Source: a virus
IMG/VR virus record: IMGVR_UViG_3300022748_000028
Span: 1-37,820 of that record
Reading direction: 5' to 3' (one strand)
Length of the DNA: 37,820 nt
The translations under genes were made by a program, and so were the position numbers. Shown one piece after another: positions 12,880 to 37,820 of the stretch (its first letter is position 1; every line of letters begins with the position of its first letter). The notes below the pieces were generated by a model that was given only the letters and a program-made list of their open reading frames with translations, did no database searches and had not been told where the DNA came from.

Positions 12880-12899
12880 CCAACCCAAGGAGTTTTGAA

Positions 12900-17000: not shown

Positions 17001-17010
17001 GGGGCGTCAC

Positions 17011-17874: not shown

Positions 17875-17892
17875 CCCATGAAAGGAATCAAT

Positions 17893-18695: not shown

Positions 18696-18702
18696 GGTGC
18701 AA

Positions 18703-18951: not shown

Positions 18952-18952
18952 G

Positions 18953-19141: not shown

Positions 19142-19143
19142 CC

Positions 19144-19386: not shown

Positions 19387-19389
19387 TTC

Positions 19390-20447: not shown

Positions 20448-20448
20448 A

Positions 20449-20470
20449 TTTTCTAAAACGCTTTAATTAG
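20449..20470 (+). promoter_or_regulatory. Candidate Mor-dependent late promoter for the rightward block
   Basis: TTTTCTAAAACGC then TTTAATTAG lies just after mor and 32 nt before the protease start. It matches the minus-strand motif before the lysis block at 20 of 22 positions. CTAA and TTAG at the edges of the core form a partial dyad. No good -35 box is present, as expected for an activator-dependent promoter. Confidence 0.6.
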
Positions 20471-20502
20471 TCTCAAAGGGGCGCTTGCACGACAGTGCAG
20501 GC

Positions 20503-21675: not shown

Positions 21676-21740
21676 TTTTCAGAGCTGATTGGTTTCAAAA
21701 CACATTTCACTCAATTCTGAATCTTTGAAAGGATTTCCCC

Positions 21741-22088
21741 ATGAGTAAACAAAGCGTTTCATTACTCGCCCTGCCTTTGATGCTGAGTGCGACGGTCGCT
21801 GCTTCCCGTTTCGTGACTCCTGCTGGTGCGCAAGCGGGTGCTGGTGCCAATACGTTTGGTGTGAGCCGCAGCGATGGTATTGCTGGTGAGCGCATCACAA
21901 CGGATGTGATTGGCACGGCTGTGGTTCAAGTCGGCGCAGCGGTCGACAAGGATGCCACCTTGAAGTCTGACGCCAACGGCAAAGCCATTGCATGGGTAAC
22001 CAGTGGTGCAAAGGTCGCCATCGCGTTGGAGGCCGCAACCGCAGCAGATCAATTCATTGAGGTGCTGCTCATTCCAAATGCCGCCTAA
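21741..22088 (+). CDS. Capsid decoration-type protein (DUF2190-like)
   Basis: A 115-residue Ala/Gly/Val-rich protein (MSKQSVSLLALPLMLSATVA, then TPAGAQAGAGANTFGVSRSD and GTAVVQVGAAVDKDATLKSD). This repeated beta pattern and the position between scaffold and major capsid match the DUF2190 group, thought to stabilise the head. The hydrophobic N-terminus superficially resembles a signal peptide. AAAGGA lies about 9 nt upstream. Confidence 0.75.
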   Translation: MSKQSVSLLALPLMLSATVAASRFVTPAGAQAGAGANTFGVSRSDGIAGERITTDVIGTAVVQVGAAVDKDATLKSDANGKAIAWVTSGAKVAIALEAATAADQFIEVLLIPNAA

Positions 22089-22129
22089 AAGCTAGGCAAT
22101 CCGAAACTCCTTTTCTCTGAAAGAAAACC

Positions 22130-23068: not shown

Positions 23069-23070
23069 AG

Positions 23071-23355
23071 ATGGCCACGAAAGCCAAAAAGCCAGCCGCC
23101 AAGCTGGCTACCAAAAAAAAGGTGGCTACGACCGTGGCGGCGGTCAGTCCCGAGATCACCGAAGAGGTGATGGTCAATAGCGTTAAGTTGCTTCACCCCA
23201 TCAAGCATGACGGTAAACGTATTCCTGCGGGAGCGGTTATTGAATTGCCCGATGAGGCTGCAACCAGCTTGGTTGACACTGGTATTGCTGATTGGGTTGA
23301 TGCTGAAGCAGATCAATCACAAGAGCAGTCACCTGAGTCTGAGGGCAAAGGCTGA
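23071..23355 (+). CDS. Small head-associated protein
   Basis: A 94-residue protein with a Lys/Ala-rich N-terminus (MATKAKKPAAKLATKKKVAT), a short beta segment (VKLLHPIKHDGKRIPAGAVI) and an acidic tail. The central motif recurs in small proteins between capsid and adaptor genes of phages (DUF7210-like). It may bind DNA or decorate the head. It starts 2 nt after the capsid stop and ends 2 nt before the adaptor. Confidence 0.65.
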   Translation: MATKAKKPAAKLATKKKVATTVAAVSPEITEEVMVNSVKLLHPIKHDGKRIPAGAVIELPDEAATSLVDTGIADWVDAEADQSQEQSPESEGKG

Positions 23356-23357
23356 CC

Positions 23358-23777
23358 ATGACATACGCGACGCAGGATGACATGGTCAAGCGCTTCGGTG
23401 AAACCGAGCTTGCGCAACGCACCAATCGTGTTGATGGAAGCTCCATTGATGCGGTGGTGCTGACGCGTGCGATCGGGGACGCCGAGGCTGAGATCAATGG
23501 TTATCTTGCGGTGCGTTATCAGCTCCCATTGGCTGAGTTGCCAAGCGTCTTGGTGCGGGTGGCCTGTGACATTGCTCGCTACCACTTATATGACGATGGC
23601 GTTCCAGAAACGGTGCGCACTCGTTACCAAGACTCGGTCAGTCTGTTGAAGCGCATGAGTTCTGGTGAGGTTCAGTTGGCGGGTGGAAATCCAATTCCAG
23701 TCGCCAGTGGTGGCAGAACGGTTGCATCAAGAAGTCCTGCTCGCGTTTTCTCAAACGACGTGTTGTCAAAGTTCTGA
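23358..23777 (+). CDS. Head-tail adaptor, DUF1320 family (Mu gp36-like)
   Basis: A 139-residue protein with MTYATQDDMVKRFGETEL, then DAEAEINGYLAVRYQLPLAE, VACDIARYHLYDDG and VRTRYQDSVSLLKRMSSGEV, the DUF1320 pattern. These proteins form the connector ring below the portal. Length and order fit. Confidence 0.85.
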   Translation: MTYATQDDMVKRFGETELAQRTNRVDGSSIDAVVLTRAIGDAEAEINGYLAVRYQLPLAELPSVLVRVACDIARYHLYDDGVPETVRTRYQDSVSLLKRMSSGEVQLAGGNPIPVASGGRTVASRSPARVFSNDVLSKF

Positions 23778-23788
23778 GGCAGCTGAGT

Positions 23789-24214
23789 ATGGATTTGACA
23801 TTCGTCATCGATCGCATTAGGTCGCAAAACATCGGCTTCAAGCAGCTCGGTGGCAGTGCCGATCTGGATGCTGCGATGTCGGGTTCTGTCATTGCGCCTG
23901 CGGCGTTTGTGATTCCGTTGCGTGAAAAAGCTGATCCAAGCGAGATCACGATGGTGACGCGTCAGCGAATCACGACAGTTTTTGGCGTGGTGATGGCGGT
24001 CGTGAATCGCAGGGATGCGCAAGGTGCCGCATCGTTGGTTGAGCTCAATGCGTATCGGTCTCCGTTGCGCACGGCATTGGCTGGCTGGATTCACGATGAC
24101 GAATCTGGTGAGCCTATGCAGTATGAGAGCGGCAATTTGTTGCGGCTCGATGGCGATGGCCGACTTTGGTGGATCGACGAATTTTTCTACATGAGCACAT
24201 TCAGGAGCAATTGA
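23789..24214 (+). CDS. Tail terminator-like protein (Mu gp37-like)
   Basis: A 141-residue protein: DLTFVIDRIRSQNIGFKQLG, then SGSVIAPAAFVIPLREKADP, RQRITTVFGVVMAVVNRRDA and a C-terminal RLWWIDEFFYMSTFRS. The pattern (variable interval, then a beta sheet ending with YM-like segment) matches tail completion proteins that follow DUF1320 in transposable phages. It likely caps the tail tube at the head end. Confidence 0.75.
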   Translation: MDLTFVIDRIRSQNIGFKQLGGSADLDAAMSGSVIAPAAFVIPLREKADPSEITMVTRQRITTVFGVVMAVVNRRDAQGAASLVELNAYRSPLRTALAGWIHDDESGEPMQYESGNLLRLDGDGRLWWIDEFFYMSTFRSN

Positions 24215-24215
24215 G

Positions 24216-24428
24216 ATGGCAAAACAAAACCAAACACAAACGTCAGACGTGTATGCGGTTGCAGATATTGATCAAAACCAAGAGGCATCGACTGTCGCAG
24301 ATGCTGATCAAGAAGCCGTGGTCAACACGCAAGGTGCTGTTGTGTTGCCAGATGAGCACCACGGTCAAGGTGGGCTTTATGAAGTTCGTCAAGGTCAGCG
24401 CGTTTTGATTGAGCGCACTGGCGAGTAA
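24216..24428 (+). CDS. Small phage protein between terminator and tail tube
   Basis: A 70-residue acidic protein. The first half (QTQTSDVYAVADIDQNQEAS) is disordered and the end (GLYEVRQGQRVLIERTGE) is the conserved part, as in short proteins upstream of tail tube genes (DUF2635-like position). Function unknown. It starts one base after the terminator stop codon. Confidence 0.6.
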   Translation: MAKQNQTQTSDVYAVADIDQNQEASTVADADQEAVVNTQGAVVLPDEHHGQGGLYEVRQGQRVLIERTGE

Positions 24429-24478
24429 TCGCAACGTTCACAAACAAATTTTTCACAACATTTTTCAGGAAACACATC

Positions 24479-25408
24479 ATGGCAAACAAAAAAATCCGCA
24501 AGATGGTCATTCTGGCAAAGCCAGAAACAACGCGTGGCATTGATGCGGCACCAACGGGTGCGAATGCAATCATTGTTGCCAACGCTAATTTGACGCCGAT
24601 TGAAGGCGATGAAGTTGAGCACAACTACATCAAGCCATTCTTTGGTAACAGCGGGAGCGCTCAGGCGACTGCCTACAACAAAGTGTCATTTGATGTGGAG
24701 CTTGCGGGTTCAGGTACCGCTGGCACACCACCTGGCTGGTCGGCCTTGATGCGTGCTTGCGCATGTGCAGTCACGATTGTGGCGGGAACCAGCGTGACGT
24801 ATTCACCCATCAGCGAATCGCTTGAAAGCATCACCATCTACGCCAACATCGATGGCACCAATCACATCATGCGTGACGTCAAGGGCAATGTGAAGGTGAC
24901 AGCGGATGCCAAAGGCCTCCCGAAATTGAATTTTGAATTCACTGGTTTGTTTACGCCTTTGGCTGCAACTACGTTGCCAGCGGCTACATATTCGAACTTC
25001 TTGGATGCAATTCCAGTTAACAAGACAAACACACAGCTGTCTCTCTTGAGCATTGCTTGTGCGGCCAGTGCCTTTAGCTTTGACATGGGCTTATCGGTTG
25101 TCAAACGTGACTTGACCAATGTGGACTCGGTTGAAATCACCGATCGCAAATCAACCGCCAGCGTTACGTTCGAAAACCATGCGATCGGCACAAAGGATTG
25201 GGTGGGTTCTGCACTTGCCTCTGAGACTGGTGCTTTGCAGCTGATTCATGGAACTGTGGCTGGGAACATCATCGAAATCAATGCGGCTCATGCGCAGATC
25301 AAGAAGCCCAGCTATTCAGACAGTGATGGCATTCAGATGATCACCACGCCTTTGGCTCTGCGTCATGGCACATCGGGCAACGATGAGTGGTCCATTGTGG
25401 TCCGCTAA
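24479..25408 (+). CDS. Tail tube protein (siphophage type)
   Basis: A 309-residue protein starting MANKKIRKMVILAKPETTRG, with KVSFDVELAGSGTAGTPPGW, NIDGTNHIMRDVKGNVKVTA and LPKLNFEFTGLFTPLAA. These are features of tail tube proteins of transposable siphophages. Hexamers stack to make the tube. No sheath gene precedes it, which indicates a non-contractile tail. It is followed by the chaperone pair and tape measure in the standard order. Confidence 0.85.
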   Translation: MANKKIRKMVILAKPETTRGIDAAPTGANAIIVANANLTPIEGDEVEHNYIKPFFGNSGSAQATAYNKVSFDVELAGSGTAGTPPGWSALMRACACAVTIVAGTSVTYSPISESLESITIYANIDGTNHIMRDVKGNVKVTADAKGLPKLNFEFTGLFTPLAATTLPAATYSNFLDAIPVNKTNTQLSLLSIACAASAFSFDMGLSVVKRDLTNVDSVEITDRKSTASVTFENHAIGTKDWVGSALASETGALQLIHGTVAGNIIEINAAHAQIKKPSYSDSDGIQMITTPLALRHGTSGNDEWSIVVR

Positions 25409-25444
25409 TCAATTCCACTCACCCATCCAACCTATCAAGCTGAC

Positions 25445-25822
25445 ATGAATAAATTTGGAATTGCAACATCACTGTGGGCCCACGTTGTTGTGGGGCTTCC
25501 ATCTGATTTGGGCGAGGTCATCGAAGTCAAATTCAAGGCCAAGTTCAAACGACTCAAAACCGATGCTCAAAAAGAGTTGCACAAAAAACTGGCCGAGCGT
25601 GCATTGACTGACCCTCAGGTGCTGGAAATGGTGCTTGAAGATTGGGATCTGAAAGACCACGAAGGCGCATCGATCGCTTTCACGCCGGATAACCTGAAAG
25701 ACACGGTTGAAGAGTTACCCGGCGTTGAACAAGCGCTGGTGCGTTCGTTCTTTGAGTACTGCCTCGTGCCTCACAAGGATGCACAGGTAAAAAACTCACT
25801 GGTGCCGCAGGGCACATCCTAG
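25445..25822 (+). CDS. Tail assembly chaperone, first frame (lambda gpG-like)
   Basis: A 125-residue helical protein (MNKFGIATSLWAHVVVGLPS, then AQKELHKKLAERALTDPQVL and DWDLKDHEGASIAF). It lies between tail tube and tape measure, where the G/GT chaperones always are. A slippery A AAA AAC near its end would shift a share of ribosomes to -1 and fuse it to the next frame, giving a G-T product of about 241 residues. It helps tube subunits assemble around the tape measure. Confidence 0.8.
   Translation: MNKFGIATSLWAHVVVGLPSDLGEVIEVKFKAKFKRLKTDAQKELHKKLAERALTDPQVLEMVLEDWDLKDHEGASIAFTPDNLKDTVEELPGVEQALVRSFFEYCLVPHKDAQVKNSLVPQGTS
25789..25795 (+). promoter_or_regulatory. Programmed -1 frameshift site A AAA AAC
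   Basis: The canonical heptamer AAAAAAC is in the right phase (GTA AAA AAC) near the 3' end of the first chaperone frame. From the shifted codon CTC (25795) the -1 frame is open with no stop through 25849 and on to 26169. This arrangement is the known way long-tailed phages make the G-T fusion. The downstream stimulator structure was not modelled. Confidence 0.75.
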
Positions 25823-25848
25823 GTTTTTCAAATGCATCGCGCCACGTC

Positions 25849-26169
25849 ATGGATGAAGAGCTTCGTGCTCAATGCGTGGCGCTTTGTGTTGACCCCAAAC
25901 AGCTGCTGCCAGATGCACAGCCTACATCTCAGGTCTACGAGGTTTGGGAAGAGCATCTGGATGCGGTCAGGGTATTTGAAGCGAGTCAAAGCCAGTGGCG
26001 CGTGGTGGCCGGATTTTCTGGACTCATGTATTTGGGGTTTGACTACCTTGGTGTCAAAGAGGTTGCGTTTGCCTTAGGCGTCACTAAAAAGCGGTGGCCT
26101 CAAGTGCTCTTGCAATTGCAGGTAATGGAGTTTGAAGGGGTCAAGTTGTTTAATCAACGCGCCTCTTGA
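25849..26169 (+). CDS. Tail assembly chaperone, second frame (DUF1799-like, T part)
   Basis: A 106-residue frame from ATG 25849, but without a ribosome binding site, so it is more likely made as the -1 frameshift extension of the preceding gene. Segments SQSQWRVVAGFSGLMYLGFD and LGVTKKRWPQVLLQLQVMEF resemble DUF1799 proteins in the same slot. The T domain recruits tail tube proteins to the tape measure. Confidence 0.75.
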   Translation: MDEELRAQCVALCVDPKQLLPDAQPTSQVYEVWEEHLDAVRVFEASQSQWRVVAGFSGLMYLGFDYLGVKEVAFALGVTKKRWPQVLLQLQVMEFEGVKLFNQRAS

Positions 26170-26240
26170 TTCTCAAATTCAAGGGGCTTGTGGTGTTGAT
26201 TTTTCAAAAGCAGATGGCTGAGTGGATTGCAGGAACGAGG

Positions 26241-26450
26241 CTATTTGCTTTTGGTCATGTGATTCGCAACTTTGGCGATCACCCACAAAACTGGAAGTGC
26301 GGCCAGCCAAACCAGCTCTTGCAAAAGCACAAGCAACGCAAGCGCCCACAAAAAGTAGGCAACCCACGGATGCACCAAAAAGAAAAGCACCAAGCCAAAG
26401 CCAATCAATGGCAGGCAAATGGATCGACTGATCAAGGGCGGTTGAGACAT
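26241..26450 (-). CDS. Small antisense-oriented membrane protein
   Basis: A 69-residue, very hydrophobic protein: MSQPPLISRSICLPLIGFGL, then FFLVHPWVAYFLWALALLVL, LQELVWLAALPVLWVIAKVA and a basic tail. It is read leftward and its start codon shares the bases CATG with the divergent tape measure start (26448-26451). The plus strand has no good gene in 26170-26448, so this fills a gap. Ribosome binding site is weak (GAGAGAAA). Function unknown; it might be a lysogenic membrane moron. Confidence 0.5.
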   Translation of the reverse strand: MSQPPLISRSICLPLIGFGLVLFFLVHPWVAYFLWALALLVLLQELVWLAALPVLWVIAKVANHMTKSK

Positions 26451-29400
26451 GTCTGAAGTTTCTCTCAAAATCACGGCTGATGGCAAGGCGGCGACCGCCT
26501 CCATTCAGCAGGTGCAAGGCGCACTCAAGGGCGTTGGCGAACAGGCCTCTCAAGCGGCCACCAGCTTACAGGCAACGGGCAAGGCCACGACAGGTCTGAG
26601 CACCTCGTTGTCTGATCTGGGACGTGCCAGCATCATTTTCTCAGCTGTGAGCAATGCGGCTGGCAATCTGGCGGACGCCATGATGCAGCTGCCCAAAAGC
26701 GGCATTGAATTTGCGGCGCAGACGGAGACCACAAAGCTAGGCATTGCGGGCATCTTGTCCAGCATGACTGCGATCAATGGTCAGACCACGACCTATGCGC
26801 AGGGCTTGGCGCTGGCAAGCGAGATCACCGCTAAGTTGCAACGCGATGCGATGTTGACTGCGGCCAGCACGCAGGAATTGGTGTCGGCATTTCAGGCAAT
26901 GGTTGGGCCCGGTCTGGCTGCTGGCATGAGCCTTGATCAAATCCGTCAGTTGTCCACCACGGGTGTGAATGCGGTCAAAGCCTTGGGGCTTTCTGGCACA
27001 CAGGTGGTTCAGGAGTTGCGCGACCTGGTTCAAGGTGGCATCACGCCTGCGAGCTCAACTTTGGCGACTGCGCTGGGCCTCAAAGATGAAGATATCGCCA
27101 AGGCGAAATCCAGCACCGAGGGGTTGTTCAGCTTTTTGATGCAGCGCCTCAAAGGTTTTGATGAGGCTGGCACTGCATTTGCTGACAGCTTTACAGGGCG
27201 CATGCAGGCGCTTTCAGAGCAGCTGGTGCGTTCATCGGCCACCATTTTCGAGCCCTTGGCCAACACGCTCAAAGATCAGGCTAAGGGAATCAGCGATGCG
27301 CTGAGCGATGAGGGCAATGTTGCCCAATTCCAGAAGTTGACCTCTGGTGTTCAGGCTGCGGCCACGGCATTGGGTGAATTGACGCAATTTGCGATCAAGC
27401 ACAGCGATGCCATCGTGACAGTGGCCAGCGCTTATGCGGCCATCCAAATTGGTGTGCGAGTGAGTGGATGGGCAGCCGAGGCAACTGCACTTGTGCAAGC
27501 TACGCTTGCTACGCGCGAGAAGGCGGTTGCAGAGCAAGCTGCACTGATCGTTAAGCGTGAGGCCATTGCGGCTGAACTTGCAGCGGCACAGGCAAATTTC
27601 GCATCAGCCAGCAATGCAGCCCGATATACGGTCTTGCAGCAACAAATCATCCCACTCCAGCAGCAACATGCACAAGCGGTCATTCAGGTCGAAGAGGCTA
27701 CCAAACGGCTCTCCATTGCCCAGAGCATGGCCGCTATGGCCACCAACGGAATGGGTGCCGTGCTGGGCGCTTTGGGCGGTCCTGTGGGCATTGCAATCGC
27801 TGCTACTACTCTTTTGATCGGCAAGCTCATGGAGCTGCGCGGAGAAGCCAATCAAACAGCACTGGTAAATTTGTCAAAGAAGCGGATTGAAGAAGCTATT
27901 GCGGTTGGCAAAAAAGCAGATGACGCTGATCTCGCGCGTGTACAGGCTTCCATCACCGTTTTGAAAAATGAACGAGATCAACTTATCGTTGATCAAGAGG
28001 CGGGTGGTATTGCATCCTGGTTGTTTGGTGCCGACTACGAAAAATATCTGAGTGACTCACTAAAGAAGAGTGCTGCTGGAATCAAAAGCAATGAGGCATT
28101 GGTTGCGGCAGCAACAGCCGTGGCGCAAACAAGTGGTGCGCAGGTGCAATTGCAAGGCAATATGGCCATGCAGCAAATTGACCAGCTGCTGGCTAAATAC
28201 AACACAGCGGCTCAGCTGACTCAGACTGCCAAAAAAGACAAAGACGCGCTGGATACGCAACTCAAAAACGTTAAGAACAGCAATGCAAGTGCTGCTGATA
28301 TCGCGCAAAAAGAAAGAGATGTGGCAGCGGCCAAGGTGCTAATTGAGCGCAAGCTGCAAGACGACTTGAAACAGCTCAGAGAGCATGGCATGGCCGAGAC
28401 ACAGGCGATCGCCAATGCGCAACTGGCTCTTGATAAGGCTCAGGCTCAGCTTCGTTTGGTGCTTGAGCGTTCAATGCTCGATCAAAAAGAGCATGCAGTT
28501 GAAATGGCGCACTCGCGTGGCCTGATGAGCGAAAGCGAGTACTACGCGCAGCGTTTTGATTTGCAACGTCAAGCCATGCAGGCTGAGCTCGATGCGGTTC
28601 AAAGTGAAGTCGACAAGGTCAATGCGTTGCGTGCAAATGCAAATTTGCGTGCAGCAGATCGAATTGGCTTAGAAGAAAAGTTGGTTTCTCTCATGACCAA
28701 AAGCGCGGAGGTTTCTTCTAAGTACAACAAAGCGCAAATGGGCGCAGGCGAAGCTGTTAGCAAGATCGCGTTTGAATACGGAAAAACGATCGACCAATCA
28801 AATGATCGACTGAATCTTGAAATCAGCCTCATGGGAAAAAGCGAACAAGTGCGCGCAACAGCTTTGGCCCAATATGACATCGAGGTGGAGTTGCAGCGCA
28901 AGATTTTGGAAATCAAAAAACAACTGGCTAACCAAGACGAGCAAGATGCAGCTATTGCATCCATCAAGGCTTCAGCCGAGCGTGCAAAACAAGCTGCTGC
29001 ACAGCAGGTCTATTTGAGTGAATGGAAACGCTCGACAGACCAGATCAGTCAAAGCTTGTCTGACGCATTGATGCGCGGTGGCAAAAGCGGCTGGGATTAC
29101 ATCAAAGACTTGGTGCGAACCACGGTCTTAAAACCCATCATTCAGATGGTGGCCACGCCAATCGCTGGCGTGTTGTCGACCGCCCTTGGTTTTGGTGCAC
29201 CTGCCAATGCGGCTGGCGTTGGAACGTCTGGCAGCATGACCAGCTCTTTAGGCATGGCCTCAACGGTCAGCAGCATTTATAAAACCATCACCTCAAGTTT
29301 TACGTCTCTTGGCGACAGCGTTGCATTTGCAGCGCATGACATGGGCGCTTGGTTGGTGAACAACACCACTGGCATTTTGAATCAAGCTGGCGGCACGTTG

Positions 29401-31821
29401 ATGGAGAGTGCTGGTGCGGTGGGTCAGTTTGCAAGTTATGCAGGCGGCGCTTTGGCGGGTTATGGCATTGGCACGGCAGTGAGCGGCAAATATGCTGCAT
29501 TTGGTGATCAAAACGTTGCCGTTGTTGGCGGTACCGCAATTGGTGCAATATTGGGCGGTCCAATTGGTGCGGCCATCGGAGGAGCGATTGGTGGCGTTAT
29601 CAACCGTGCCTTTGGTATGGGCTCGCAAGAGACAACTGACTACGGGATCAAGGGCTCGTTTTCTACTGCAGGTGCAAGCGTTAGCCAATATCAAAATTGG
29701 AAGCAAGATGGTGGCTGGTTCAGAAGCGATCGCAGCGGCACCAATCTGAGTGCGATCAACGCTCAAATGCAAACGCTGCTTGATGCGTCTTTGCAATTGA
29801 CAACCGAAGCTACTAAGGGATATGCCAAATCAATTGGTCTGAGCGCTGACGCTGTCTATGGTTATACCCAGTCAATCAATCTGAGCTTGAAAGATCTGGA
29901 TCAGACTGGGCAAGAAAAGGCGATCGCCAAAGCGCTCAGTGGATTTGGTGAAAGTCTCATTCAAACTGCCTACGGCGAAATCCTTTCTGGATTTTCCAAA
30001 TCAAGCGAGACCTTGAGTCAAACGCTGACACGTCTTTCAAGCAGCTTGTCCGCTGTCAACCAGGTGTTTGATACGTTGAGTTCACGCTTGATCGATATTG
30101 GCGTGGTGGGTGCTGATGTGGCCAGCAAGTTGCTGGATGCGTTTGGCGGTAGCGACACTTTTGTGAAGGCGACAAGCGCTTATTACGACGCGTTTTATAG
30201 CGATGCAGAGCGAGTTGCCACCACCACTCGCCAAGTCTCTGCCGCATTGCGTGATTTGGGCCTTGTCATGCCTGACACCAAAGAAGCGCTGCGCGCACTG
30301 GTGGAGGCTCAGGATTTAACGACTGACAGCGGAAGAAAGAACTATGCGGCTCTGATGTCCATGGTGAGCGGGTTCAAAGTCATATTTGATGCCCAAGAAA
30401 AAGCTGCTGCAGATGCAGCCAAAGCTCAACAAGACTATGTTCGCGCTTTGCAAGATAGCGGCAAAAAAATCTCTGATTGGCTGGCGGGGCTGAGCACATC
30501 CAGTTTTGACAGATCCAATCCTGAGCGATCTTTGGCTGATACGCGAACCAATTACACACAAACCTTGCAATTGGCACGCGGTGGTGATCAAACGGCATTG
30601 GCTGAAATTACTGGCCGTGCTGAGGGGTATTTGCAGGCGGCTATGAGCACGTCCACCAGCAGCAGCCAATACCAAGCGATCTTGGCGCAAGTCAAAGCCG
30701 AACTTGGAGACCTGCCAGCGGCGAAGACTTATCAGCTTCAAACACTGAGCGCCCTTGAGGCCATCAACATGGCAATTGTTGAGGGGTTTGGTGATGGGTT
30801 GTATGGAATCACGACAGGCTTTGCCAAGCTCGATGCCAATGTTGACGGACTGCTGACATTTGATGAGCTGGTCAATGGTCTTCAAGGCAAGGCGACCAAT
30901 AGCCAGATCATGGCGTTGATCAGTTCGGTTGACAGCAATGGTGATGGGCAAATCAGCGCCATCGAAGCGCAGACTGCGGTCAACCAGCTGATTGTCAAAA
31001 ACATCAGCAGCGGACTCTTCAATATTGCAACAAACTTTGCGACCTTGGATTCAGATGTCAATGGCTTGCTGACATTTGATGAATTGAAGCGTGGTCTTTC
31101 AGACAAGGCGAGTGACAACCAGATCAAGGCATTGATTGCTGCCATTGATACGAATGGTGACGGGCAAATCAGCGCCTTGGAGGCTCAAACGGCTGTCACT
31201 CAAATGCTCAAATCATCAACAGATGGTGTTGCTTCTAATACGGACGGATTGAGCACCAACATGGGGGCGCAGCTTCGGACGTTGTTGGCAATCAGCAATG
31301 ATGGCATCTACGCAGTTTCCAAAAACACATCATCTGCTTTGGACTATTTGGCTGCAATCAAGTCGTATGTTGGCAATATTGATATCAGCACGGCCAAGAC
31401 TGCAGCCAACCCGACCACGGTCGTTAATAACGGAGGTGGCGGCGGCATCATCAGCCGTACGCTCAGCGCATTTGGTTTTGCACAGGGTGATGTGTTTGGT
31501 GGGGCTGGCATTTACACCAAGCCCACTTATTTCTCATTTGAGGGGAACCTAGGGGCTCTTGGTGAAGCTGGTCAGCCTGAAGCCGTTATGCCACTTGAGC
31601 GCATGGCTGATGGCGCGTTGGGCGTTCGATCACTTCAGCAGTTGGTGATTGACCGTTATGTGACGATGGGTGACACATCAGCGCTGGAGACAAGAATCGA
31701 CCAACTGATTGAGGATGGTCGACGTCAAGCCTATGCGATGGTTGAAATGCAAATGCGCATGACCAAGCTCTTTGAACGCTGGGATGGCAATGGCTTGCCA
31801 GAAACGAGGGTTATCGCATGA
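26449..31821 (+). CDS. Tail tape measure protein with EF-hand-like insert
   Basis: A 1790-residue protein, by far the longest gene here, as expected for a tape measure, whose length sets tail length. The N-terminal domain (residues about 75-280, GIEFAAQTETTKLGIAGILS and on) matches the tape measure N-terminal family. Long coiled coils follow, then a Gly-zipper membrane-like segment (AIGAILGGPIGAAIGGAIGG) near residue 1030, and near the end PEAVMPLERMADGALGV, the usual C-terminal motif. Residues 1462-1578 hold four EF-hand-like loops in two 72-residue copies. At roughly 0.15 nm per residue the tail would be long, but that estimate is a rule of thumb. Confidence 0.92.
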   Translation: MSEVSLKITADGKAATASIQQVQGALKGVGEQASQAATSLQATGKATTGLSTSLSDLGRASIIFSAVSNAAGNLADAMMQLPKSGIEFAAQTETTKLGIAGILSSMTAINGQTTTYAQGLALASEITAKLQRDAMLTAASTQELVSAFQAMVGPGLAAGMSLDQIRQLSTTGVNAVKALGLSGTQVVQELRDLVQGGITPASSTLATALGLKDEDIAKAKSSTEGLFSFLMQRLKGFDEAGTAFADSFTGRMQALSEQLVRSSATIFEPLANTLKDQAKGISDALSDEGNVAQFQKLTSGVQAAATALGELTQFAIKHSDAIVTVASAYAAIQIGVRVSGWAAEATALVQATLATREKAVAEQAALIVKREAIAAELAAAQANFASASNAARYTVLQQQIIPLQQQHAQAVIQVEEATKRLSIAQSMAAMATNGMGAVLGALGGPVGIAIAATTLLIGKLMELRGEANQTALVNLSKKRIEEAIAVGKKADDADLARVQASITVLKNERDQLIVDQEAGGIASWLFGADYEKYLSDSLKKSAAGIKSNEALVAAATAVAQTSGAQVQLQGNMAMQQIDQLLAKYNTAAQLTQTAKKDKDALDTQLKNVKNSNASAADIAQKERDVAAAKVLIERKLQDDLKQLREHGMAETQAIANAQLALDKAQAQLRLVLERSMLDQKEHAVEMAHSRGLMSESEYYAQRFDLQRQAMQAELDAVQSEVDKVNALRANANLRAADRIGLEEKLVSLMTKSAEVSSKYNKAQMGAGEAVSKIAFEYGKTIDQSNDRLNLEISLMGKSEQVRATALAQYDIEVELQRKILEIKKQLANQDEQDAAIASIKASAERAKQAAAQQVYLSEWKRSTDQISQSLSDALMRGGKSGWDYIKDLVRTTVLKPIIQMVATPIAGVLSTALGFGAPANAAGVGTSGSMTSSLGMASTVSSIYKTITSSFTSLGDSVAFAAHDMGAWLVNNTTGILNQAGGTLMESAGAVGQFASYAGGALAGYGIGTAVSGKYAAFGDQNVAVVGGTAIGAILGGPIGAAIGGAIGGVINRAFGMGSQETTDYGIKGSFSTAGASVSQYQNWKQDGGWFRSDRSGTNLSAINAQMQTLLDASLQLTTEATKGYAKSIGLSADAVYGYTQSINLSLKDLDQTGQEKAIAKALSGFGESLIQTAYGEILSGFSKSSETLSQTLTRLSSSLSAVNQVFDTLSSRLIDIGVVGADVASKLLDAFGGSDTFVKATSAYYDAFYSDAERVATTTRQVSAALRDLGLVMPDTKEALRALVEAQDLTTDSGRKNYAALMSMVSGFKVIFDAQEKAAADAAKAQQDYVRALQDSGKKISDWLAGLSTSSFDRSNPERSLADTRTNYTQTLQLARGGDQTALAEITGRAEGYLQAAMSTSTSSSQYQAILAQVKAELGDLPAAKTYQLQTLSALEAINMAIVEGFGDGLYGITTGFAKLDANVDGLLTFDELVNGLQGKATNSQIMALISSVDSNGDGQISAIEAQTAVNQLIVKNISSGLFNIATNFATLDSDVNGLLTFDELKRGLSDKASDNQIKALIAAIDTNGDGQISALEAQTAVTQMLKSSTDGVASNTDGLSTNMGAQLRTLLAISNDGIYAVSKNTSSALDYLAAIKSYVGNIDISTAKTAANPTTVVNNGGGGGIISRTLSAFGFAQGDVFGGAGIYTKPTYFSFEGNLGALGEAGQPEAVMPLERMADGALGVRSLQQLVIDRYVTMGDTSALETRIDQLIEDGRRQAYAMVEMQMRMTKLFERWDGNGLPETRVIA
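30832..31182 (+). repeat. Tandem duplication of an EF-hand pair inside the tape measure
   Basis: Loops DANVDGLLTFDE (30832-30867), DSNGDGQISAIE (30931-30966), DSDVNGLLTFDE (31048-31083) and DTNGDGQISALE (31147-31182) each follow the 12-residue EF-hand pattern. Loops 1 and 3, and 2 and 4, are exactly 216 bp apart, so the unit of 72 residues was duplicated. Loops 2 and 4 have the classic D-x-N-G-D-G-x-I-x-x-x-E ligands and probably bind calcium; loops 1 and 3 are weaker. Confidence 0.85.
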
Positions 31822-32720
31822 CCTTGACGGTTGTTAAGCCTGCAAGCATTACGGATGCGGTGCTCATCAATACGGATGTAGCTGAGGCTGACTATCCGGC
31901 ATGGTCGGCGTCGACCACTTATGCGGTTGGTTCGCGCGTCATTCTTGTGAGCACGCACAAGATTTATGAGAGCCTTCAAAACACCAACCTCAACAACTCA
32001 CCTGCAACAGCGACCGCTTTTTGGAATGAGGTCACGCCCACCAATCGCTGGAAGCTGTTTGACTTGAGCAACAGCACGCAGACCACGAAATCGGGTTCGA
32101 TGTTCTATGAGCTGAAAACTGGTTCCGCTGTGAATGCGGTTTCAGCGTTGAACCTGAGTGGCGTGCAGAGCATACGAATTCGTTTGACCGATCCAGTCTT
32201 TGGATTGCTCTATGACAAAACCACATCTCTCACGAGCATTCCGAGCGAGTCAAGTTGGTACGCATGGTTTTTTAGTGAGCGCATTGAAAGCGTTCAGCAC
32301 GTTGCGTTGGATTTGCCAAGTTATCCAAACGCCACGGTGCGTGTGGATTTGACGGGTACGTCCACCATGGCCATCGGTGTTTTGATGATCGGCCAGCAAA
32401 AAGTTGTCAGCGAAGAGATTCGTTTTGGCATGCGCATGGGAATTCGTGACTACAGCCGCAAAGAAAAGAATGAATGGGGTGATGTGGTTTTGGTTGAGCG
32501 CGCTTTTTCCAAGACCCGTTCATTCCCTGTGCAGTTGCGCAACGATGACCTTGACCGAGTGGACGCATTGCTGGCTAGTTTGAGGGCCAAACCCTGTTTG
32601 TGGGTTGGTTCAGATTCTTTTTCCAGCATGACTGTTTTTGGCTACCCAAGTAATTTTGAGATCGTCGTTGCTTATGCGCGCTTCTCTGATTGCACCATTG
32701 ATATTGAAGGATTGACATGA
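31818..32720 (+). CDS. Tail protein with carbohydrate-binding-like N-terminal segment
   Basis: A 300-residue protein overlapping the tape measure and DGR target genes by 4 nt each. After the N-terminus there is YPAWSASTTYAVGSRVILVS, then THKIYESLQNTN, a pattern like the chitin-binding (CBM5/12) modules that often occur in tail proteins. Next comes a beta-rich part (VRVDLTGTSTMAIGVLMIGQ) and a C-terminal DCTIDIEGLT. It is probably the distal tail or baseplate element that carries the fibre, but the exact role is not known. Confidence 0.65.
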   Translation: MTLTVVKPASITDAVLINTDVAEADYPAWSASTTYAVGSRVILVSTHKIYESLQNTNLNNSPATATAFWNEVTPTNRWKLFDLSNSTQTTKSGSMFYELKTGSAVNAVSALNLSGVQSIRIRLTDPVFGLLYDKTTSLTSIPSESSWYAWFFSERIESVQHVALDLPSYPNATVRVDLTGTSTMAIGVLMIGQQKVVSEEIRFGMRMGIRDYSRKEKNEWGDVVLVERAFSKTRSFPVQLRNDDLDRVDALLASLRAKPCLWVGSDSFSSMTVFGYPSNFEIVVAYARFSDCTIDIEGLT

Positions 32721-34354
32721 CCACCATTTCCACGTTGCCAACGCCTCCAACGCCAGCGGATACGCCCGCTGATTTCAATACCAAGGCATTCAACCTGGTT
32801 GGCGCTTTGCAGGCCTTTGTCACGCAGACCAATGCCGTTGTAGGCGAGGTCAATGCCAGTGCCGCAAGCGCCTCATCGAGCGCATCAACTGCCACTTCAG
32901 CTAAGACCTTGGCTGAGACTGCAAGAGACACGGCTATTTCCAATGCAAGCGCTGCTGCTTCGGCCAACACGGCTGCGCAAACGGCATTGGCTGCTGTGCT
33001 CGATGCGTATGACAGTTTTGACGATCGCATGCTTGGCAGAAAAGATGCAGACCCGACAGTCGACAACGATGGCAATCCATTGGTTGGTGGGGCCCTCTAT
33101 TTCAACCTAGGCATTTCCAATCCATCGATCAAGGGCATGCGACTTTATGACGGGTCAACTTGGGACATGGCTTATGTCACTGGTGCGAGCTATTTGAGCA
33201 AGGCCAACAACCTGTCTGATTTGCCCAATAAAGCCACGGCGAGGGGCAACCTTGGACTTTCCTCTGTCGCGGCTTCTGGGGCCTATTCTGACCTTTCTGG
33301 AGCCCCTGACACGAACATGTCTTATGGGTTGTTTTATAAGGCCAATCCCAATGCGGTGGCTTTCACCAAAACGGGGGCAGCAACGCTTCAAATCAAAGCT
33401 GGCACCAGAGTTGATGTGGCTGGAACGATGGTGACTTATGCCAGTGCGACCTCGGTGACCATGCCAACGCTGACTGCTGGTGAAGACTACAGCATTTGGG
33501 TGAAAACGGACGGAACCATTCAAGCGGTTGCTGATCCATACAGCGCCCCGGCCAGCGCACCAGGTGCTGGCAGCTGGCGAAAGATTGGTGGTTTTCACTA
33601 TGGTTTGGTAGCGTCTGGCACCACGGTGGCTGGAGGCAGTTTTGCGACGACAGGCAACGGCATGATCTGGACGCAAACTGATGTGGACGCGATCGCAGGC
33701 ATCAATGCGTATAGCCTGTGGGATTTGCGTTGGACCATTAAATCCATTGATCGCCAGCCACGTGGCATGGCATTTGACCCTTGGGTTAACGCATGGGCTG
33801 CAATCTATTTCTGCCCTACAAACCACATCACTAGCGGCATCAGTCGTTACAACACCGATGTGGCCAGCGGCTCTGTGTTGCCTCGTAAACCATTGGCTTA
33901 TGGTGGCAACGGCACCACAACCTATGCAAACGGCAACTGGTGGACATTCAATGAGATTGCGGCAGCATTTGGGTTGCGTTTGCCATCGGAACGTGAGTTT
34001 CAGTCCACCATGTTTGGTGTGACAGAAGCGCAGTCTTTGGGAGGCTCGTCAGTGACCATTCCCTCAACGGGTCGTCAGGCGGGTTATACGAGCCGTATAG
34101 GCTGCGAACAGGCCACGGGGCATATCTGGACATGGGGTGCTGATACGGGCCACTATGGCGAGACATTCGCTTGGTCAGATGTGACTGGTGGACGTGGGCA
34201 ATCCTACACCTCGTACAACACGAAAGTGTTACTAGGTGGCGGCCGCGGTGACGGCTCCTTCTCCGGTTCCCGTGCCTCTCATTGGCACTACTATCCATGG
34301 AACGCGGGCTGGGACATTGGGCTGCGCGCCTTCGGTGACCTCTTGGTCTTGTGA
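32717..34354 (+). CDS. DGR target protein: tail fibre / receptor-binding protein with variable C-type-lectin-like end
   Basis: A 545-residue protein. The N-terminus has Ala/Ser-rich heptad-like repeats (NASAASASSSASTATSAKTL) that form a coiled stalk; then LYDGSTWDMAYVTGASYLSK and NNLSDLPNKATARGNLGL, typical fibre segments; then a C-terminal domain (about 340-545) with LRLPSEREFQSTMFGV and GHIWTWGADTGHY, the look of the C-type lectin / FGE-like folds used by DGR targets. The last residues (about 507-541) are the variable repeat. It should bind the host receptor, and the DGR behind it diversifies the tip. Start overlaps the previous stop. Confidence 0.9.
   Translation: MTTISTLPTPPTPADTPADFNTKAFNLVGALQAFVTQTNAVVGEVNASAASASSSASTATSAKTLAETARDTAISNASAAASANTAAQTALAAVLDAYDSFDDRMLGRKDADPTVDNDGNPLVGGALYFNLGISNPSIKGMRLYDGSTWDMAYVTGASYLSKANNLSDLPNKATARGNLGLSSVAASGAYSDLSGAPDTNMSYGLFYKANPNAVAFTKTGAATLQIKAGTRVDVAGTMVTYASATSVTMPTLTAGEDYSIWVKTDGTIQAVADPYSAPASAPGAGSWRKIGGFHYGLVASGTTVAGGSFATTGNGMIWTQTDVDAIAGINAYSLWDLRWTIKSIDRQPRGMAFDPWVNAWAAIYFCPTNHITSGISRYNTDVASGSVLPRKPLAYGGNGTTTYANGNWWTFNEIAAAFGLRLPSEREFQSTMFGVTEAQSLGGSSVTIPSTGRQAGYTSRIGCEQATGHIWTWGADTGHYGETFAWSDVTGGRGQSYTSYNTKVLLGGGRGDGSFSGSRASHWHYYPWNAGWDIGLRAFGDLLVL
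34233..34338 (+). repeat. DGR variable repeat (VR)
   Basis: 106 nt aligned without gaps to the template repeat at 34795-34900 (offset 562). There are 12 mismatches, at 34235, 34241, 34242, 34248, 34250, 34280, 34286, 34289, 34304, 34307, 34308 and 34313. All are adenine in TR (nine A-to-G, two A-to-C, one A-to-T). All fall in codon position 1 or 2 and alter ten codons (for example Asn to Gly, Asp, His or Tyr). The last 25 nt (34314-34338) are identical, with the GC-rich part GGGCTGCGCGCC as the likely initiation-of-mutagenic-homing region. Confidence 0.95.
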
Positions 34355-34376
34355 TAAGTTGCGAAAGCAACTTATC
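34353..34376 (+). promoter_or_regulatory. DGR target-recognition hairpin with GAAA loop
   Basis: GATAAGTTGC (34353-34362), the loop GAAA (34363-34366) and GCAACTTATC (34367-34376) form a perfect 10-bp stem, 14 bp after the VR end and overlapping the target stop codon. In the Bordetella phage DGR a hairpin/cruciform with a GNRA-like tetraloop at this place is needed for efficient homing. No such hairpin follows TR, as expected for the donor. The nearby run of seven T could also make it a weak terminator before avd. Confidence 0.9.
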
Positions 34377-34389
34377 CGGAAATTTTTTT

Positions 34390-34797
34390 ATGAAGCCAAG
34401 CACAGTCACCAAATCGGTTCGGCAAGAGCCAAAAGCCACGATGGCCATCATTGAAAAGTTTGATGGCTTCGCGCGCTACCTTTATCCAAAACTCACCAAT
34501 ACCAGCAGAGTTCATCGAGTCATGCGAGATGAATTTTTAAAGGCCATATTCGATCAGTACAAACTGTTTCATGCCGCAGGTAAAAGTGGGCAGGTATCGC
34601 GCCTATATGAGGCTGATGCGGGTTTGGCATATATTAGGGAACTTTTGCGATTTATGTCATGGTCTGGGGTCAAGCAGGACGGTAAAGGTCTGATGTCATT
34701 GCGTCAATACGAGATAGCTTCGGTTCATCTCGCAGAGACTGGTGCCATGCTTGGTGCTTGGATTGCGGCATCGCAAAAGAGGTCGGTAGGGGGTTAA
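34390..34797 (+). CDS. avd: DGR accessory variability determinant (Avd-like)
   Basis: A 135-residue basic helical protein: IEKFDGFARYLYPKLTNTSR, then VMRDEFLKAIFDQYKLFHAA, ADAGLAYIRELLRFMSWSG and MSLRQYEIASVHLAETGAML, ending GAWIAAS. This is the four-helix-bundle pattern of Avd proteins, which form pentamers, bind nucleic acid and the RT, and are needed for mutagenic cDNA synthesis. ATG 34390 is used; ATG 34441 is a possible alternative. Its stop codon lies at the very start of TR, so the avd message also carries the template RNA. Confidence 0.88.
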   Translation: MKPSTVTKSVRQEPKATMAIIEKFDGFARYLYPKLTNTSRVHRVMRDEFLKAIFDQYKLFHAAGKSGQVSRLYEADAGLAYIRELLRFMSWSGVKQDGKGLMSLRQYEIASVHLAETGAMLGAWIAASQKRSVGG

Positions 34798-34900
34798 GTG
34801 GCAACCGCGATAACGGCTCCTTCTCCGGTTCCCGTGCCTCTAATTGGAACAACTATCCATGGAACACGAACTGGAACATTGGGCTGCGCGCCTTCGGTGA
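34795..34900 (+). repeat. DGR template repeat (TR)
   Basis: The unchanged template copied by the RT. It begins at the avd stop (TAA at 34795-34797) and contains 24 adenines in 106 nt, 12 of which differ in VR. Asn codons (AAC, AAT) are clustered at the positions that vary, so random replacement of A gives many residues but no stop codons from these codons. After 34900 the similarity to VR stops abruptly. Confidence 0.95.
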
Positions 34901-35055
34901 GGATCAAACGAAAGGTAAAAGCACCCTGTACTGCTACGGCGTTGCAGGGCGACCTGAAAATTGATGGTCAGCCTCTATCGGCCTGCTTCGGCAAACACGC
35001 TTCGAGGTTCGGAAAACGGGGAGTAGGGCTTTGCCCGAAACCCGCGCCGACTGCT
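34795..35055 (+). ncRNA. DGR template RNA (TR plus spacer to the RT)
   Basis: The stretch from TR to the RT start. In studied DGRs the RNA spanning avd end, TR and the spacer is the template and primer for cDNA synthesis. The 155-nt spacer (34901-35055) has no gene of its own; a frame is open through it by chance. It includes GC-rich complementary stretches (around CGGGGAGTAGGGC and GCCCGAAACCCGCG) that may fold. RNA limits are inferred from position. Confidence 0.65.
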
Positions 35056-36039
35056 ATGGGTAAAAAATATAAAAACCTGTTTGACCAAGTTACTGACCCA
35101 GATAACCTTTGGTCCGCCTATAGAAAAGCATCGTTGGGCAAGCGCATGACGATGGGCTTTTTGCTCTTCAAAGAAAACGAAGCGGCAAACCTCTACTACC
35201 TGCGACAAGCCCTGCTCGATGGGACGTATGAGCCAGGTGAGCCTCGTAAGTTCATGGTCTATGAGCCTAAGCCTCGCCAAATATCTGCGCTACCGTTTGT
35301 CGACCGCGTAGCGCAACATGCTTTGTGCAACGTCATAGAGCCAATTTTCGATGGTGTATTCCTGCCTCAGAGCTATGCCTGTCGGCGTGGCAAGGGAACG
35401 CATCGTGCAGCCGTGCAAGTTCAGGCCATGCTGCGCAGGGTGATTAAGTCGGGTGGTTCACCTTGGATTTTGAAAACTGATTTTTCAAAGTACTTCGCCA
35501 GCATCGATCGTGAATTGTTGCACCGAGAAGTTCGCAGAAAGATTTCTTGTGAAAAGACGATGTGGCTGTTTGAACGATTCATTCCAAGGACTGGCACTGG
35601 GTTGGATATTGGCAACCTGACCAGTCAGCTCGGCGCAAACATCACTGGACACATCCTCGATCGCTGGCTGGTCCACGAGGTGGGAATTACCAACTTTGCC
35701 CGCTTCATGGACGATGTGGTGGTTGTTGGGCGCAGTCAAGAAGCCATGATTCTGTTACAGGCGCAGATGGAGTCATATGCCAAACACCATCTTGGCTTGA
35801 AGTTCTCGCACTGGAGCGTCCAGCCGTGGGAGCGTGGCGTCAATTTTTGTGGCTACCGCATTTGGCCAACTCACAAGTTACTGCGCAAAGCCAGCGTGGT
35901 TCGGGCCAAGAAAAAGCTCAAACAGTTTGAAGAGCATGGTGACACAGAGGGTCGCCAAAAGTTCTTAGCCGCTTGGCGTGGACACGCCATGTGGGCCAAC
36001 ACCTACAACCTTCTGAAACGACTCGGAGTAATCAAATGA
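35056..36039 (+). CDS. DGR reverse transcriptase
   Basis: A 327-residue RT beginning MGKKYKNLFDQVTD. Motifs in order: PKPRQISALPFVDRVAQHAL (residues 71-90), catalytic Asp-142 in LKTDFSKYFASID, the DGR-specific motif IGNLTSQ at 185-191 (in place of the Q-G-x-x-x-S-P of other RTs), catalytic FMDD at 217-220 (usually YMDD), and GVNFCGYRIW at 261-270. It copies TR into cDNA with errors at adenines. The frame is open upstream through TR, but those codons are not RT-like. The stop overlaps the next start (ATGA). Confidence 0.95.
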   Translation: MGKKYKNLFDQVTDPDNLWSAYRKASLGKRMTMGFLLFKENEAANLYYLRQALLDGTYEPGEPRKFMVYEPKPRQISALPFVDRVAQHALCNVIEPIFDGVFLPQSYACRRGKGTHRAAVQVQAMLRRVIKSGGSPWILKTDFSKYFASIDRELLHREVRRKISCEKTMWLFERFIPRTGTGLDIGNLTSQLGANITGHILDRWLVHEVGITNFARFMDDVVVVGRSQEAMILLQAQMESYAKHHLGLKFSHWSVQPWERGVNFCGYRIWPTHKLLRKASVVRAKKKLKQFEEHGDTEGRQKFLAAWRGHAMWANTYNLLKRLGVIK

Positions 36040-36449
36040 AGCACTATTTCAGCCCCCATACGGGCGAACACATCGCAACCACCACGCCCGCTGACTGGAT
36101 GGGCAGTACAGACCTTGCGCCACCCGGCTATGACCCGATTTCGCAAAGTGCGATTTATCAGGGCGGCATTTGGCGCATAGCCGATGCACAGCCTTTGCCC
36201 AAGGTGGTGCCCACCTCGGTGTCGATGCGTCAAGCGCGTTTGGCGCTGTTGGATGCGGGGATTTTGAGCAATGTGATGGATGCGCTGGCCGCTATCTCGG
36301 ATGAGAAGCAGCGCATGGCTGCACAAATCGAATGGGAGTACGCCAGAAGCGTCGACCGCAGCTCGCCATGGGTAAGTAGCCTAGTGGCCTCTTTGGGCCT
36401 TTCTGAGGCCGATGTGGACGCTTTGTTCACGAGAGCTGGGGAGTTCTAA
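36036..36449 (+). CDS. Tail-associated protein (fibre assembly-like)
   Basis: A 137-residue protein overlapping the RT stop by 4 nt. The N-terminal part (MKHYFSPHTGEHIATTTPAD) looks like the end of tail proteins. The C-terminal part (SMRQARLALLDAGILSNVMD, then QIEWEYARSVDRSSPWVSSL) is common in phage proteins after tail fibres, perhaps fibre assembly chaperones. Translational coupling to the RT is odd for a tail gene and may keep it with the cassette. Confidence 0.65.
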   Translation: MKHYFSPHTGEHIATTTPADWMGSTDLAPPGYDPISQSAIYQGGIWRIADAQPLPKVVPTSVSMRQARLALLDAGILSNVMDALAAISDEKQRMAAQIEWEYARSVDRSSPWVSSLVASLGLSEADVDALFTRAGEF

Positions 36450-36513
36450 GGCCCCCCACAAAAAAGACAGGGCGAGTGGCTGAAGTGCGCCAACACTCCA
36501 ACCACCCGTCTCA

Positions 36514-36532
36514 GCCGTGATCAAGCCACGGC
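36514..36532. promoter_or_regulatory. Dyad with GATC in the leader of com
   Basis: GCCGTG (36514-36519) and CACGGC (36527-36532) are a perfect inverted repeat with 7 nt between. A GATC (36519-36522) lies inside it. In Mu, GATC methylation controls the mom operon, so a site whose methylation alters regulator binding is possible. The rest of 36450-36587 shows nothing else. Confidence 0.35.
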
Positions 36533-36587
36533 ATCAACCAAAGACCCTGCCACCTGTACAGGCTCGGTCATTATGCTGGATGCCGAT

Positions 36588-36785
36588 ATGGAAACGATTC
36601 GATGTGGTTCATGCCACAGAAAGCTGGCCGAGGCCAGCTATGTTCGACTGGAGATTAAGTGCCCGCGCTGCGGGACTTTGAATGTATTGAGAGCTATAAG
36701 CTCCCCACCTGCGCGCCTTGGAGCGTCAAATGTTGAAAGCAACTATGACAAAGCTCAAGTCCAAACCGCAGGCGCGACCTGTTAA
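36588..36785 (+). CDS. com: Com-like zinc-finger translational regulator
   Basis: A 65-residue protein starting METIRCGSCHRKLAEASYVR, with a zinc site made of Cys-6, Cys-9, Cys-25 and Cys-28 (CGSC and CPRC). This is the Mu Com family. Mu Com binds the mom mRNA and opens its start region for translation. Here the downstream gene is an adenine methylase instead of mom, and the two overlap by 56 nt. ATG 36588 is used; an ATG at 36573 would add five residues. Confidence 0.88.
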   Translation: METIRCGSCHRKLAEASYVRLEIKCPRCGTLNVLRAISSPPARLGASNVESNYDKAQVQTAGATC

Positions 36786-37569
36786 AACCCCTGAAATTCA
36801 GGCCCTTCCTCTTGTCCCTTGGGTGGGCGGCAAACGTCGCCTAGCCCAGCACATCCTTCCCCTGTTTCCCGAGCACTCGTGCTATGTGGAGCCGTTTTGC
36901 GGTGCTGCTGCCCTGTTTTTCCTAAAAGAGCCCGCCAAGGTTGAGGTATTGAATGACGTCCACGGCGAGTTGGTGCGGCTCTACAGGGTGGTGCAAAACC
37001 ACCTCGATGAGTTTGTCCGTCAGTTCCGATGGGCGCTGGCCAGCCGTGAAATGTATGGCTGGTTGCAGGCAGTTCCACCTGATACGTTGACCGATATTCA
37101 GCGTGCAGCCCGGTTCTTTTACCTCCAAAAACTGGGCTTTGGTGGCAAGGTGGACGGGCAGACTTTTGGCGTGGCCACGACCTCCAAGGCTCGCCTGAAT
37201 CTGCTTCGGCTGGAAGAGGATCTAAGCCAAGCTCATTTGCGTCTTCACCAAGTCACCATCGAGAATCTCGATTGGCAGGCCTGTTTGGACCGCTACGACC
37301 GTCCACATACGCTGTTCTACCTTGACCCGCCTTACTACGGCACTGAGGGCTATGGCGTTGGTTTTGGCCTAGAGCAGTACGGTTTAATGGCCGATCGGCT
37401 CAGATCTATGAAGGGCAAGGCGCTGGTGAGTGTCAACGATATCCCTGAGATGCGAGCAGCCTTCAAAGGTTTGCCCATGCGCAAGCTGTCCATCACTTAC
37501 ACGGTTGGGGCCAGTGGACAAGGTCGAGGGGAGCGAGGTGAGCTTTTGATCGCCAATTTCAAGATGTAG
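36730..37569 (+). CDS. DNA adenine methyltransferase, D12 class (Dam-like)
   Basis: A 279-residue N6-adenine methyltransferase. The N-terminal SAM-binding part has PWVGGKRR (30-37) and PFCGAAAL (55-62), and the catalytic motif is DPPYYG at 199-204. The target is probably short (GATC is common in this class) but cannot be read from sequence alone. It would protect phage DNA from host restriction. GGAG lies 7 nt before ATG 36730. Overlap with com suggests Com-dependent translation, as for com-mom in Mu. Confidence 0.9.
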   Translation: MLKATMTKLKSKPQARPVKTPEIQALPLVPWVGGKRRLAQHILPLFPEHSCYVEPFCGAAALFFLKEPAKVEVLNDVHGELVRLYRVVQNHLDEFVRQFRWALASREMYGWLQAVPPDTLTDIQRAARFFYLQKLGFGGKVDGQTFGVATTSKARLNLLRLEEDLSQAHLRLHQVTIENLDWQACLDRYDRPHTLFYLDPPYYGTEGYGVGFGLEQYGLMADRLRSMKGKALVSVNDIPEMRAAFKGLPMRKLSITYTVGASGQGRGERGELLIANFKM

Positions 37570-37581
37570 ACCTGCCTGATG

Positions 37582-37684
37582 GAGTCCTAGCGCCTTATTG
37601 TTTTCTCTGAGCGTAATTTTGTTTTTCTCAGCGAAAATGCTAGGACTCTCCATTTATCGCGCTTTTATCGCTCAAATATCGCGC
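37582..37684. repeat. Right prophage end: inverted and direct repeats
   Basis: GAGTCCTAGC (37582-37591) and GCTAGGACTC (37639-37648) are a perfect inverted repeat. Between them two direct copies, TTGTTTTCTCTGAGCG (37598-37613) and TTGTTTTTCTCAGCG (37619-37633), start 21 bp apart. Outside, three successive 11-bp units on the minus strand share CGATA, spanning 37652-37684. These units match the left end in sequence and 22-bp spacing. They are candidate transposase sites; the outermost unit overlaps the ThiO-like stop codon, so the true boundary is uncertain. Confidence 0.45.
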
Positions 37685-37820
37685 CGCGCTTCAAATTGGA
37701 ATTGTGTTGCCAAGGTCGTTGTGCGCGCTTGCACCCATTCCACCACCACGTCCAGCATGGCAGGGGAGATCAAAAAACCGTGCCGGTACAGACCATTGAT
37801 TTGCAAGGTCCGATCACCCA
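37672..37820 (-). CDS. thiO: ThiO-like glycine oxidase, 3' end (host gene, cut by window edge)
   Basis: The final 48 codons read GDRTLQINGLYRHGFLISPA, then MLDVVVEWV and end FEARRDI. The NGLYRHGFL segment is the conserved FAD-domain end of ThiO, which oxidises glycine to the imine used in thiazole synthesis. It is on the same strand as the ThiS-like gene at the left edge and would lie directly upstream of it without the prophage. The last few residues might be encoded by the phage end. Confidence 0.75.
   Translation of the reverse strand, partial: GDRTLQINGLYRHGFLISPAMLDVVVEWVQARTTTLATQFQFEARRDI

Follow-up and report, generated by a model that had tools for sequence, protein, structure and literature searches.

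The viral genome IMGVR_UViG_3300022748_000028, a complete IMG/VR record of 37,820 nucleotides that was analysed at its full length and is referred to here as the window, very probably carries a complete diversity-generating retroelement (DGR) of the BPP-1 class, borne by a transposable prophage that is Mu-like and has a Burkholderiales host. The cassette is read from the plus strand in the order target gene with its variable repeat (VR), hairpin, avd, template repeat (TR) and reverse transcriptase (RT). A preliminary description of the window had proposed such an element; all of its parts were located, in one run and in the order given there, and each of the 12 mismatches between VR and TR falls on a TR adenine. 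The components are:

32717..34354, plus strand: DGR target, an Mtd-family tail protein of 545 amino acids (aa) with C-terminal VR (PF21916, E 8e-16; phrog_11262, E 9e-83)
34233..34338, plus strand: VR, 106 bp, 12/12 mismatches at TR adenines
34353..34376, plus strand: hairpin GATAAGTTGC-GAAA-GCAACTTATC, 10-bp stem and GAAA loop, overlapping the target stop codon
34390..34797, plus strand: avd, accessory variability determinant (PF22296 bAvd, E 4e-21; phrog_3206, 'Avd protein of DGR')
34795..34900, plus strand: TR, 106 bp, 24 adenines, 12 of them altered in the VR
34923..35051, plus strand: structured spacer of the DGR RNA (Rfam RF03022 Phage_DGR, 82.9 bits, gathering threshold 50, model positions 1-127 of 127)
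35056..36039, plus strand: DGR RT, 327 aa (phrog_1423, 'Reverse transcriptase', E 1e-108; PDB 8ub7, E 1e-104; tree)

Adenine-specific differences in an Mtd-family tail gene

VR and TR are 562 bp apart. Half of the TR adenines are changed in the VR (12/24), compared with none of the 82 other bases, which gives p = 1.2e-9 if the mismatches were scattered randomly over the 106 positions. Nine of the substitutions are to G, two to C and one to T. The VR ends about five codons upstream of the target stop, and in the target frame eight TR codons are of the AAC or AAT type that is classic for DGRs. Changes at the adenines can reach up to 13 codons and about 2.6e12 protein variants, with no stop codon introduced.

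One gene separates the target gene from the tape measure gene upstream. The target product matched Mtd of BPP-1 (1yu3) with 206 bits in phmmer, over residues 205-545, through the VR to the C-terminal end. The similarity to solved Mtd structures covers the lectin-like domain at the VR, in agreement with the lectin-type target proposed earlier, and the N-terminal stretch of about 200 residues is different from BPP-1 Mtd. Homology supports the target as a relative of the receptor-binding protein Mtd, C-type-lectin-like in solved structures; because of this homology and its position behind the tape measure, the protein probably has a receptor-binding role.

Hairpin, avd, spacer RNA and reverse transcriptase

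The hairpin starts 14 nt past the VR. For avd, the start codon is most likely the ATG at 34390 and not the GTG at 34351 assumed in the preliminary description. The RT start given there was also moved: GTG 34798, from which a 413-aa open reading frame (ORF) runs, lies within the TR itself, and since the similarity shared with other DGR RTs sets in at ATG 35056, the gene is taken to start at that codon. The RF03022 RNA between TR and RT had been absent from the earlier list of parts; BPP-1 and four relatives have it as well. The corresponding structured spacer of BPP-1 brings in RT and Avd and serves as primer for the cDNA (PMC12875486).

The expected SQ-type motif of the RT, IGNLTSQ, fits the (I/V/L)GxxxSQ pattern defined for DGR RTs (PMC3521204) and not QGxxxSP. 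Among named phages and solved structures, BPP-1 bRT was closest to the RT (E 1e-104, 52% identity), whereas RTs of the group II and retron types gave E 1e-15 or weaker in phmmer. In a tree of 37 RTs, the protein formed a clade with five IMG/VR relatives (99/97) inside the DGR RTs, where the preliminary description had expected it, and group II intron RTs fell outside the DGR clade (100/100). The long branches of the Hankyphage and Bise RTs were poorly placed in this tree, which left the DGR placement of the window RT unaffected.

Mismatches at TR adenines, an RT with the SQ motif and a VR at the 3' end of a lectin-domain target mark the element as a DGR. The features of the BPP-1 class are present in Avd, the structured RNA between TR and RT and the stem-loop after the VR; the YMDD box of the RT, usual for this class and not defining alone, is departed from by one residue. 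The Bordetella phage BPP-1 itself shares with the window the mtd-avd-TR-brt order, the Mtd target, Avd, RF03022, a GAAA-loop hairpin and adenine-specific VR/TR differences. Its hairpin, at the equivalent place, has an 8-bp stem compared with 10 bp in the window. The window differs in the longer, unrelated N-terminus of its target (about 200 aa), in an FMDD box in the RT, in a repeat of 106 bp instead of 134 bp and in its transposable carrier, BPP-1 having an annotated attachment site that matches a tRNA-His gene.

By analogy with BPP-1, an RNA spanning avd, TR and spacer would be transcribed, and the spacer would fold and recruit RT and Avd. The RT would copy the TR to cDNA with random bases opposite adenines, and this cDNA would take the place of the VR, directed there by the 3' end that both repeats have in common and by the hairpin downstream of the VR. 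An Mtd-type receptor-binding protein would in this way vary at up to 13 codons of its lectin-like C-terminus, with a presumed role in host recognition.

VR variation in relatives and activity of the cassette

In 54 distinct relatives of the cassette, 641 of 672 VR/TR mismatches were found at adenines. Near-identical contig pairs showed the same bias. The VRs of L034 and L069 differ at 13 of 30 TR-adenine positions, compared with 1 of 2995 other positions; the corresponding values are 15/27 and 4/2943 for L027/L029, 19/26 and 8/2919 for L048/L050, and 8/28 and 7 changes in roughly 3000 others for a fourth pair (adenine excess, Fisher p < 1e-13). Between L020 and L023, the latter belonging to a MuA-bearing group, 8 of 25 adenine positions of the VR are changed and none of the 81 others, and the flanks differ at 287 of 2722 positions. 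The pairs L003/L004 and L009/L010 and those with L021 were excluded, their apparent high divergence being due to a VR cut by the contig end and to coordinates out of register. The VR variation that had been predicted across related genomes was seen in these cassettes, with TR and flanks mostly almost unchanged; judged from such alignments, it argues for the class and not for the window copy.

Several points bear on whether the copy in the window is active. The active-site box of its RT, at about 35706-35717, reads FMDD with both catalytic aspartates kept, as opposed to YMDD or YVDD in the other DGR RTs compared (for the Hankyphage RT, a simple motif search gave no active-site box). The only close copy of the cassette is that of L082/L015, the 27-base conserved repeat core leading to one other viral contig, L082; here the predicted variation was not borne out, since the VR is identical to that of the window. 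This identity says little because the surrounding 5.5 kb is also 100% identical. The VR substitutions of the window did not differ significantly from those of the relatives (9 of 12 to G, compared with 56% in the 54 relatives, p = 0.25), and an effect of FMDD on the mutation spectrum was not detected in this comparison.

L082 is a contig of 9.4 kb that corresponds to window positions 26204-35604. It is identical over 30056-35604 and clearly diverged farther upstream in the tape measure gene, a pattern that reads as mosaicism with a sharp boundary.

A relic DGR that has lost its activity and has had its VR fixed at some earlier time, for example through impairment of the RT by the FMDD change, would account both for a box that is unique among the RTs compared and for the identical VR in one close relative. 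Against such a relic, the reading frames of the cassette are all open, the catalytic aspartates are kept and the RNA scores well over threshold. The VR also has no mismatches at non-adenines, the pattern that a last homing event recent by comparison with drift would leave. We consider a relic rather unlikely.

The transposable prophage and its host junction

The transposable prophage named in the preliminary description was recovered with both ends, its transposition genes and a junction in the host:

1..132, minus strand: 5' portion of host thiS, truncated at the contig edge (translation; 83% to L172 in tblastn)
197..201, unstranded: target-site duplication TTTAT, left copy (matching flanks)
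202..37652, unstranded: complete transposable prophage of 37,451 bp, TGGGAC... at the left and ...CTCCA at the right (TG..CA ends with 5-bp flanks)
13908..15689, plus strand: MuA-type transposase (phrog_310, E 7e-108)
15747..17000, plus strand: MuB-type transposition ATPase (phrog_296, E 3e-63)
20013..20447, plus strand: Mor/C-type late transcription activator (PF08765, E 4e-15)
26449..31821, plus strand: tape measure protein, 1790 aa (phrog_25966; PF13499 for its EF-hand pairs)
36718..37569, plus strand: D12-class N6-adenine DNA methyltransferase, beside the cassette at the right end (PF02086, E 2e-28)
37653..37657, unstranded: target-site duplication TTTAT, right copy (matching flanks)
37675..37820, minus strand: 3' portion of host thiO, truncated at the contig edge (translation; 81% to L172 in tblastn)

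Exactly one TG..CA pair with identical 5-bp flanks occurs in the permitted interval, where 0.02 would be expected. The flanking fragments, which we take from their protein sequences to be thiS and thiO, correspond to genes that are adjacent and uninterrupted in L172, a genome from the family of a Rhodoferax relative. The MuA and MuB genes, the TG..CA ends and the 5-bp duplication make the prophage Mu-like, with one insertion site known. Terminase and portal genes run leftward, and those from MuA to the capsid genes rightward. The same left-minus/right-plus layout was found in many independent Burkholderiales prophages (Giesbergeria, Rhodoferax, Simplicispira and others). The nearest named MuA proteins, at 48%, were those of Torontovirus JBD25-like Pseudomonas phages, in a phage collection in which BcepMu, whose type the preliminary description had named for the carrier, was not found. 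As no tail sheath or baseplate match was obtained among the tail proteins scanned, several small ORFs lying outside the scan, the carrier is likely a siphophage. By analogy with phage Mu, it may package by the headful and diversified lysogens may spread.

A chimeric contig, in which DGR and transposase came from different phages, would fit with the finding that the nearest cassette relatives (L002, L004, also L009 and L011) lie on records with tyrosine integrases in which MuA was not detected. Three lines of evidence make this very improbable: the prophage ends are flanked by two halves of one host locus and a 5-bp duplication, the same gene order occurs in many independent Burkholderiales prophages, and target, avd and RT are connected to the end of the tape measure gene on an independent contig as well, with 100% identity. 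Among 34 genomes with close MuA relatives, 4 RT matches were obtained at the cut-off and a TR/VR pair in only 2 (L163 and L164), that of L164 on the same contig as MuA. Because the nearest long-record relatives sit on tyrosine-integrase phages, the simplest reading of these comparisons is that a tail-tip-plus-DGR module has been exchanged between phages of different integration types.

Chance or an ordinary duplication of the gene's 3' end without retrohoming would likewise leave two similar copies 562 bp apart, and is already refuted by 12/12 mismatches at the adenines of one copy (p ~1e-9) with RT, Avd, DGR RNA and hairpin alongside. Equally little speaks for a retron or group II intron enzyme beside the tail gene by coincidence: the weak phmmer similarity (E 1e-15 and weaker) is outweighed by the match to BPP-1 bRT, the SQ motif, the 100/100 separation and RF03022.

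Other features of the window were noted. The tape measure protein has EF-hand pairs near residues 1528-1584, in its C-terminal region, which are unusual in tail proteins and suggest calcium binding. A 208-bp, internally deleted insertion at 8607-8814, with ends TGAACTGCACCCCAAAAGTTGGACA and CGTCCAACTATTGGGGGTCAGTTCA, flanking AAG duplications (read by eye) and the remnant ORF start MSKYSKEFKLKV, is presumably IS3-family-like. Between the lysis and regulatory regions, a minus-strand gene of 318 aa (9130-10086) had no Pfam or PHROG matches.

Other transposable phages with a DGR

The preliminary description had regarded a DGR on a transposing phage as the most likely undescribed system in the window. 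This novelty claim is refuted by published and deposited phages, and the mechanism, by homology to BPP-1, would be well understood. Hankyphage p00 of Bacteroides is a Mu-like transposable phage that shows 5-bp duplications and for which mutagenesis of the VR has been demonstrated (PMC6199706, PMC12135933). Like the window, it has a DGR acting on a tail fibre gene close to its right end, with an N6-adenine methyltransferase coming next; unlike the window, it has a distant RT, another target protein family and a Bacteroidota host. Mushu of Faecalibacterium, a Mu-like phage with a DGR and a 5-bp direct repeat, shows VR variation in virion reads (PMC5883640), and the same article cites a 2013 paper by Toussaint on DGRs of Mu-like phages. 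The Chromohalobacter phage YPCBV-1 is a Mu-like isolate with a DGR (PMC9769972). It resembles the window in its avd, its right-end RT (42%) and a 126-bp TR/VR with 14/14 mismatches at adenines, and differs in a contractile tail, a target annotated as SUMF1/EgtB family and the lower RT identity. YPCBV-1 also contains a type II hammerhead ribozyme (RF02276, 78 bits; L168:7490-7554).

Three GenBank phages likewise combine a transposase with a right-end DGR RT, and the mismatches of the TR/VR pairs located in them by this analysis lie at adenines in 12/13 cases in Vibrio phage vB-Vv-ZX4290 (L171), 9/9 in Pseudomonas phage Bise (L170) and 10/11 in Bacillus phage BalMu-1 (L167). Their RTs are 35-40% identical to that of the window and their targets carry no Mtd annotation. 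Bise shares the DGR-then-Dam order and differs in having a sheath gene. In the Mu-like ZX4290, genes for tail tube, tape measure and tail tip are annotated but none for a sheath, and the siphophage version is therefore precedented in GenBank. The TR/VR repeats are unannotated in all three records. An N6-adenine methyltransferase between DGR and right end is common to the window phage, Bise and Hankyphage (L186). Pseudoalteromonas phage ACA1 was rejected as a transposable example, being P2-like with an integrase, and the RT of Burkholderia phage KS5 was judged by its authors unlikely to function as a Brt (PMC3091744).

The cassette lies at the right end in 6/6 transposable phages compared. If DGR homing were coupled to replicative transposition, each copying round providing fresh VR targets, this position would reflect the coupling and one induced cell would release many receptor-binding variants; we regard such a coupling as doubtful, a long shot at present.

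What the window adds is a clean and complete DGR of the BPP-1/Mtd class, in a transposable prophage with a Burkholderiales host for which exact ends and the host junction are available. Individually the finding is ordinary; the wider pattern is that several unrelated transposable phages have their DGR close to the right end.

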